Positions 13,985 to 15,969 of a stretch of DNA of 64,000 nt are shown piece by piece. The notes below the pieces were generated by a model that saw only the letters and a list, made by a program, of their open reading frames with translations, searched no databases and was not told where the DNA came from. A program made the position numbers and the translations under genes. Origin of the DNA: Caldilineaceae bacterium (GTDB lineage Bacteria > Chloroflexota > Anaerolineae > Caldilineales > Caldilineaceae); the NCBI GenBank assembly GCA_958295845.1, contig OY282376.1, positions 2,431,022-2,495,021 of the forward strand, in the 5' to 3' direction. The first letter of the stretch is position 1; each line of letters opens with the position of its first letter.

Positions 13985-15385
13985 TCAATAGCCCAGCAAA
14001 CCGCGGCTACCAAGAAGCCTTTCCCCCTGGGTCGAGAGAAAGCCGCGCATAAATGTGCGCGTAACAAAAACCGCTGTAAACATGGAGAGCAGCACACCGA
14101 CCGAAAGCGTGATCGCGAAACCCTTAACAACACTGGCGCCGAAATTATTGCCGAACCAGTAGAGTACAGCACATGAAATCAGCGTAGAGAGGTTCCCGTC
14201 ACGAATCGCCGGCCACGCGCGACTGAAGCCGGTTTCGACTGCCAGCCGCAAAGATCGGCCGTTGCGCAGCTCTTCCTTCATCCGTTCGAAGATCAGTATA
14301 TTGGCATCAACCGCCATGCCGATTGAAAGAATGAACCCAGCGATACCCGGCAGGGTAAGCGTCACCGGCATCAGCTTGTACATGGCAATATTCAAAGTCA
14401 CGTAGATCGCCAGTGCAATCGTCGCCAGAAACCCCGGCAAACGGTACAGAATAACCATGAATAGCAGGACCAGAATGCCGCCGACAATGCCTGCCTGTAA
14501 GCTGCGGTCAATCGAGTCCTGGCCCAGGCTGGCGCCGATAGTACGCACGTCTACAACCTCAAGAGGGATCGGCAGCGCGCCATAGCGCATCTGAATGGCC
14601 AGGCTTTCTGCCTCCTCCTGCGAAAAGTCGCCCGTGATCACACCGTTGTCGTTAATGGCAGCATTGATAACCGGCGTCGACAGAACCCGCCCGTCCAGAA
14701 TTATCGCCAGGACTTCACCAATGTTATCGCGCGTGTAATTGAAGAAGTCACCGCTGCTCTCGCTCTTCAGATCGAACTGGATCTGCCAGAACGTATACTC
14801 ATCCTGCGTGGCGACCACAGCCTGCAGGATGTCGCCCGTCATAATCGTCTCAAACGTTTCATCAGGGAACGGAATCGATTGGGGCGCGGCTTCCCCGGCG
14901 ACAATCGCTTCCTGCAAAGCCGTGACCGCGTTCGGGCGGTTAGTCGTATTGATAAAGTCATCAGGACGGACCGGTAGCCCGCCAAGATTGACGAACTCCA
15001 GCTGGCCTGTCGAGCGAATCGTCTCGATGGCCTGGTCTGGATTCTTGACGCCGGGCAGCTCGACGATCATGCGTCGCTCGCCCTGCAACTGAACGGTCGG
15101 CTCAGCCAGGCCCAGGCCGTTAACTCTCTGCTCAACGATGATCTTGGCCGAGTTGAGGGCATCCTCGGGAAGGGGCTGGTCCTCGCTGATCTCTGCCTCC
15201 AGCAAGACCTGCGTTCCCCCCTTCAGATCCAGCCCAAGCGTCAGTTCGCGGATATCGCGCTGGGTGTCAACCCCCGGAGCCAGACCTTCCTCCAGCCAGA
15301 GAGGGTGGTCAATCGGCAGCGCCACAAACAAAGAGACGGCGAACAAACACAAGATAAGAAAAACGTAGACAAGTTGATTGCGCAT
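13985..15385 (-). CDS. secD: Protein translocase subunit SecD
   Basis: 466 residues. First membrane helix (VYVFLILCLFAVSLFVALP), the LGLDLKGGTQVLLEAE motif, the external P1 head with NGLGLAEPTVQLQGERR and LPGVKNPDQA, then five helices from ~285 including GMAVDANILIFERMKEE, the conserved helix-4 signature. Shorter than E. coli SecD (615) because the head is compact, as in other Gram-positives and Chloroflexi. ATG 15385 is preceded by an A/T-rich region with no strong SD. Cotranscribed with secF. Divergent to the short RNA gene and P450. Confidence 0.95.
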   Translation of the reverse strand: MRNQLVYVFLILCLFAVSLFVALPIDHPLWLEEGLAPGVDTQRDIRELTLGLDLKGGTQVLLEAEISEDQPLPEDALNSAKIIVEQRVNGLGLAEPTVQLQGERRMIVELPGVKNPDQAIETIRSTGQLEFVNLGGLPVRPDDFINTTNRPNAVTALQEAIVAGEAAPQSIPFPDETFETIMTGDILQAVVATQDEYTFWQIQFDLKSESSGDFFNYTRDNIGEVLAIILDGRVLSTPVINAAINDNGVITGDFSQEEAESLAIQMRYGALPIPLEVVDVRTIGASLGQDSIDRSLQAGIVGGILVLLFMVILYRLPGFLATIALAIYVTLNIAMYKLMPVTLTLPGIAGFILSIGMAVDANILIFERMKEELRNGRSLRLAVETGFSRAWPAIRDGNLSTLISCAVLYWFGNNFGASVVKGFAITLSVGVLLSMFTAVFVTRTFMRGFLSTQGERLLGSRGLLGY

Positions 15386-15681: not shown

Positions 15682-15710
15682 TTGACATAATTCTTAAACT
15701 GTGAAATACT
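15682..15710 (+). promoter_or_regulatory. Strong sigma70-type promoter for a short RNA/peptide gene
   Basis: Consensus -35 TTGACA at 15682-15687, exactly 17 bp spacer, -10 AATACT at 15705-15710 (4 of 6). Predicted transcription start is near 15717, leaving a leader of about 13 nt before the ribosome-binding site. Confidence 0.6.
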
Positions 15711-15745
15711 GTCGGCGTATCCTTAACACAAGGAGGTGATGCCCT

Positions 15746-15805
15746 ATGGATAATTGTAGTAGCAGTACTGGTCCGTTAGCATCACCACTGGAGATTATTC
15801 TCTAA
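15746..15805 (+). CDS. 19-residue peptide with very strong ribosome-binding site
   Basis: ATG at 15746 preceded by AAGGAGGTGAT (15730-15740), nearly the full complement of the 16S rRNA 3' end, six bases before the ATG. The product reads MDNCSSSTGPLASPLEIIL and stops at TAA 15803. The Cys-Ser-Ser-Ser-Thr run could sense charging of one of these tRNAs if this is a leader peptide. No membrane segment, signal or known family. It could equally be a non-functional frame riding on a regulatory RNA. It ends inside the stem described for the surrounding RNA, so ribosome position would affect folding. Confidence 0.4.
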   Translation: MDNCSSSTGPLASPLEIIL

Positions 15806-15829
15806 GAGATGCTTTCGGACCAGACGCCG

Positions 15830-15862
15830 CAAGACCCCGTCATTGGCGGGGTCTTGTTCTTT
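15830..15862 (+). terminator. Intrinsic terminator of the short RNA
   Basis: Ten-base-pair stem CAAGACCCCG / CGGGGTCTTG (15830-15839 with 15847-15856) with a 7-nt loop, followed by TTCTTT. Confidence 0.8.
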
Positions 15863-15940
15863 CCGGTAGGCGCTTTCCTTCGTTCCTCCAAACCGATGGT
15901 CAGATCTATGATTTGGCGGAAACACCGCAAGGTTTGACAC

Positions 15941-15969
15941 TTGACATACAGTTTCCTCAATGCTAACAT
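15941..15969 (+). promoter_or_regulatory. Promoter of the P450 gene
   Basis: TTGACA at 15941-15946, 17-bp spacer, TAACAT at 15964-15969 (4 of 6). A second TTGACA begins 8 bp upstream at 15933. The transcript would carry a leader of about 120 nt before the P450 start. Confidence 0.55.

Follow-up and report, generated by a model that had tools for sequence, protein, structure and literature searches.

What kind of element occupies the gap between secD and a P450 gene in a Caldilineaceae genome of the phylum Chloroflexota? Within the window, i.e., the whole stretch of 64,000 nucleotides analyzed here, an earlier note had described a short promoter-to-terminator unit in which a near-full-length Shine-Dalgarno sequence (SD) precedes a 19-residue frame, and in which a segment complementary to the SD (antiSD) also takes part in a second stem. 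Re-inspection of the sequence demonstrated that the unit is real and that the positions and complementarities given for it are correct (Table 1). Its RNA would be approximately 145 nucleotides long. Below we ask how widely the unit is conserved, which of its parts are under constraint, and what it may do.

The unit at the secD–P450 locus

The –35 hexamer and the 17-nt spacer are present, and the TTTGACA and TGTGAAATACT positions are conserved in the genus alignment; taken alone, the promoter call in the window is weak, as 7 promoter-like sites were found in 5 kb versus 2.8 expected. The SD is followed by the 19-codon open reading frame (ORF) as described, and the 16S tail of the same genome includes GGATCACCTCC. 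The exact complementarity of the antiSD over the SD was likewise borne out, as was the competing stem, here named H1, with its 12 pairs around a TT/TT mismatch. The terminator has a stem and a run of Ts; the stem length of 10 bp originally ascribed to it should be corrected to 13 pairs. In addition, the terminator takes no part in the competition between stems, which involves the SD-masking helix and H1. The fold energy of the region 15715–15865 is –67 kcal/mol, with a z-score of –7.5 relative to dinucleotide shuffles.

Table 1. Coordinates of the unit, its parts, and flanking features in the window.
Feature	Positions	Strand	Details
secD	13985–15385	–	flanking gene
Promoter-to-terminator unit	15682–15862	+	promoter, near-full-length SD, 19-codon ORF, H1, terminator
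Promoter-like site	15682–15710	+	TTGACA (15682–15687), 17-nt spacer, AATACT (end at 15710), extended –10 TG
5' segment	15715–15722	+	GCYATCC in relatives; local pairing with SD possible (P0)
Near-full-length SD	15730–15742	+	AAGGAGGTGATGC; strand a of the masking helix
ORF	15746–15805	+	MDNCSSSTGPLASPLEIIL; 19 codons, ATG at 15746, TAA at 15803–15805
Codons NGT AGT	15752–15765		GUAGU in RNA
H1 5' arm	15770–15783	+	GGTCCG, TT mismatch, AGCATC; pairs with 15808–15821
antiSD segment	15779–15788	+	GCATCACC(AC); GCATCACC (15779–15786) complements GGTGATGC (15735–15742) of the SD
H1 3' arm	15808–15821	+	GATGCT, TT, CGGACC
Intrinsic terminator	15829–15862	+	13-pair stem (15829–15857), T-rich tail to 15862
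Second promoter-like site	15941–15969		TTGACA, 17-nt spacer, TAACAT, extended –10; ahead of the P450 gene
P450 gene	16096–17481	+	flanking gene

Distribution in Chloroflexota

A DNA search identified the unit in 27 of 61 genomes (its own genome counted), other families among them. With a covariance model, whose E-values are rough, it was detected in 189 of the 297 sampled genomes of its class, representing 110 of 172 genera, and in 66 of 301 genomes sampled over the phylum, some of them from other classes, with lower scores. Such recurrence in both searches places the unit above chance level; a lack of conservation in relatives, which the earlier note had named as grounds for abandoning the idea, is thus not what is observed. 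Nearly all carriers within the class have a single match per genome, and two model matches were seen in each of G001, G006, G013, G163, and G205. The restriction to Chloroflexota is based on a scan of 84,980 species for the exact pattern, which yielded 89 matches; all of them are Chloroflexota copies, from Caldilineaceae, Ardenticatenia, Anaerolineae, Thermoflexus, Chloroflexaceae, and relatives, except for a handful that resemble chance occurrences. Genomes that lack a match may reflect divergence or true loss. One genus of the same family is without a match in all four of its listed genomes (G031, G036, G156, G216), i.e., the unit has either been cleanly lost there or has strongly diverged. 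To judge from the comparison of genomes, the unit is old, nearly always single-copy, and widely maintained in the phylum.

A terminator-like hairpin is located 3' of 121 out of 139 copies (3% in shuffles). Upstream, 110 out of 139 have a –10-like hexamer, versus 42% of shuffles. In some lineages (L034, L040, L094), the –10-like box and the GCYATCC motif are separated by a small additional hairpin.

Competing helices and the reading frame

The helix formed by the SD and the antiSD, which was left out of the covariance model, is paired in 95.5% of cells in the 73 aligned sequences. Most changes in it are to G-U, and two-sided changes were seen in six cells only, five of these being A-U to G-C replacements (L149, L154, L164, L173, and L176); covariation is limited since the SD is nearly invariant. 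At least nine pairs can be formed in 109 of the 139 distinct copies, compared with 6% of codon-shuffled ORFs, and four divergent elements have fewer than seven. The window copy has eight consecutive pairs, and in other lineages, e.g., L029, L141, and L181, the helix comprises 12–14 pairs and extends via the spacer up to or through the AUG; hence, binding to 16S rRNA cannot account for helices of this length. Moreover, the GC positions of the SD that lie outside the part complementary to 16S rRNA are kept in match with the antiSD. In one large family (L130–L148), the antiSD is CCCTCCTC and the SD region is doubled to AGGAGGAGG, so that the helix appears to have been re-registered by co-change of both strands rather than lost. 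The 5' segment could also pair with the SD (P0, 93.5% of cells); no covariation supporting these pairs was found in the alignment and the 5' motif is absent from some distant copies, and P0 was therefore not accepted as a conserved helix and is suggestive at most.

H1 exhibits two-sided changes at 10 of 11 aligned pairs, with 94% of cells paired, a result reached by 0 of 500 shuffles; the underlying alignment of 73 copies was fitted to the H1 structure and is biased toward it, and identical changes are visible in unfitted alignments. Base changes in homologues, which according to the earlier note could have broken the stems, are thus mostly compensated, and conservation and covariation support the proposed masking of the SD, the competition between stems, and the independence of the transcription unit. 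The codons NGT AGT (GUAGU in RNA) recur early in the ORF over most of the phylum amid otherwise variable sequence. Possible pairing between this conserved motif and the H1 3' arm was inspected by eye, and no matching changes were seen.

The two helices exclude each other to a degree that depends on the lineage. In copies of the L029, L141, and L181 type, the antiSD is situated within the H1 5' arm, and therefore the H1 and masking folds are mutually exclusive, as originally suggested for the window. In the window type itself, where H1 contains a 2x2 mismatch, the antiSD lies directly 3' of the basal H1 5' arm and overlaps only with the top of H1. The exclusion would be partial here, as the SD:antiSD helix can be predicted to form alongside the base of H1, giving a pseudoknot of the H type with the strand order a, b, a', b'. 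In both arrangements, a conserved helix that covers the SD competes with a second conserved helix.

An ORF of 14–24 codons follows the SD in essentially all of the 139 distinct copies, a set in which L050 was counted after its start had been corrected by eye, the weak match L188 without a start was excluded, and some copies have an in-frame upstream ATG. In 134 out of 139 copies, the stop codon is positioned –8 to +13 nt relative to the beginning of the H1 3' arm, and stops are present in the other two frames in 114 and 137 of the 139. A frame that stays open and stops at a constant position is, at the level of sequence, good evidence for translation. Within the ORF, codons 2–8 have a pN/pS of 0.26 in the genus, and a value of about 0.2 was obtained for a second family; for codons 15–19, pN/pS is 0.82. 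Few codons are involved, and RNA constraint may explain part of these values. The antiSD is read in different frames, yielding VASP, RHHLR, RITSG, or other peptides depending on the lineage; hence, its nucleotides are conserved and not that peptide. Phylum-wide selection for a single peptide was rejected on these grounds, the N-terminus being constrained within groups.

A candidate switch and its alternatives

We propose that the unit is a stand-alone mini-mRNA with a built-in switch, whose coding sequence masks its own SD, and estimate the probability of this interpretation at roughly 0.6. The transcript would start just upstream of the SD and stop at its own terminator. Pairing of the antiSD, from within the short ORF, with the SD would turn translation off; alternatively, the antiSD would be wholly or partly engaged in H1, whose 3' arm lies past the stop codon, leaving the SD free. 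The mask would thus have three possible sites, namely, the SD, H1, or the inside of a translating ribosome. We infer an order of events from the layout of the parts: the SD and the antiSD are transcribed before the H1 3' arm, and an RNA on which no ribosome loads would go through a masked state. This state should form first, as the H1 3' arm is made last, even though H1 is more stable; the median difference in Vienna energies between H1 and the SD:antiSD helix is 6.6 kcal/mol in favor of H1, and hence masking may be transient. A translating ribosome would cover the antiSD and the H1 5' arm, so that neither helix could close before it terminated next to the H1 3' arm. Since accessibility of the SD is the outcome common to all lineages, the direct product of the switch is most likely the extent of translation of the tiny ORF, with the peptide or the engagement of the ribosome as the putative output.

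One alternative, included in the original proposal as leader-peptide and cis-riboswitch options, is a leader, attenuator, or riboswitch acting on the downstream gene, here that of the P450. Indeed, in some species a gene starts shortly past the terminator. However, the next genes of homologous copies are located on either strand and belong to many families (P450 in the same genus, AIR synthase-related, HNH, and others elsewhere), and upstream genes are similarly mixed. No shared regulated gene was found, and therefore the unit is not a leader of one gene, be it the P450 or a common one. Besides, the unit is ended by its own terminator, no anti-terminator segment is evident, and the P450 gene has a promoter-like site of its own, in line with the earlier observation that it has its own signals. 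The leader hypothesis is thus already contradicted, and we regard it as highly improbable. Even less can be said for chance or for a homologue of 6S RNA, tmRNA, or another Rfam family, which we practically discount. Only weak, sub-threshold matches speak for it, and neither the window element nor 16 loci with relatives have a match in Rfam 15 at the gathering score, which agrees with the initial failure to place the unit in a known family. A role as a 6S replacement was rejected, as a 6S covariance match is located elsewhere in the genome (G000:C1:1752788-1752977), and the conservation and covariation of the unit contradict a chance origin.

Two further explanations concern the product. The peptide itself might be functional, as a small regulatory or signaling peptide, with the RNA structure only setting its dose; retention of the ORF in essentially all copies and purifying selection on codons 2–8 point in this direction. 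Against this, the C-terminal half is dictated by the RNA and read in varying frames, codons 15–19 have the pN/pS of 0.82 given above, and apart from a polar M(D/N)..S start no motif was found across the phylum, so that we consider this explanation rather doubtful. Alternatively, the RNA could act in trans, with AUCACCUC beside H1 blocking the SDs of other mRNAs and its own SD and ORF setting its availability. Such a role would fit an independent unit with a terminator, in which a conserved anti-SD adjoins a stable stem, and anti-SD motifs in unpaired regions are a hallmark of alpha-r14 sRNAs (PMC10746234). Yet the antiSD matches its own SD even where the 16S tail differs (GC; CCAT in other lineages), and it is only partly unpaired in the window type and buried in one or the other helix in other lineages such as Chloroflexia-type copies. 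Furthermore, exact 10-mer complements show no genomic enrichment (17 sites versus 14 in the control), and of the remaining 16 exact sites no more than one or two are SD-like; the test covered the exact full complement in the unit's own genome. On balance, action in trans seems unlikely. One possible trans target is L204, where the genome has its sole other clear GAGGTGATGC site immediately preceding an ATG. Of the options listed in the earlier note, a dual-function sRNA is still a candidate, its role in trans being putative.

The proposed self-masking mini-mRNA shares features with several known systems. SD-masking pseudoknots of riboswitches and ribosomal-protein genes that control a downstream gene include preQ1-II, SAM-II, rpsO, and the alpha operon, where, similarly, the SD is strand a of an a-b-a'-b' pseudoknot or lies in an exclusive helix; in contrast to them, the ORF putatively controlled in Chloroflexota has 14–24 codons and itself includes the strand that masks the SD, a terminator comes after it, and no ligand is known. 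In ermC-type translation attenuators, too, the position of the ribosome in a tiny leader ORF decides which stem forms, whereas the Chloroflexota unit has no regulated downstream gene. SgrS/SgrT is a dual-function coding sRNA, i.e., a short RNA with a small ORF. Another short RNA carrying a small ORF is Pos19, of 219 nt with a 150-nt ORF, which regulates independently of translation (PMC5036791). Unlike in both of these, the ORF of the Chloroflexota unit overlaps the regulatory helices, and no trans targets are known. The alpha-r14 (NfeR1) sRNAs of alphaproteobacteria, which carry CCUCCUCCC in three hairpin loops, are likewise small independent transcripts in which a conserved anti-SD segment occurs together with hairpins (PMC10746234). 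The Chloroflexota antiSD differs in being located within an ORF and in matching the SD of the same RNA. To our knowledge, no alpha-r14 sRNA has a self-complementary SD with a conserved ORF, and we know of no analogue in which a self-contained mini-ORF bears its own mask.

Few small regulatory RNAs seem, as far as we know, to have been described for Chloroflexota, and a search of the open-access literature found no published description of this unit. A broader role can be suggested tentatively: the unit may be a phylum-wide housekeeping RNA that reports on translation, where loading and release of ribosomes on the mini-ORF would set the conformation and the output would act globally on translation. 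The unit appears old, is independent of gene context, is absent from Rfam, and is carried by lineages with cultured members. What defines it, a mini-ORF harboring the mask of its own ribosome-binding site, leads to a direct experimental question, namely, whether the cell needs the peptide, the engagement of the ribosome, or the RNA.
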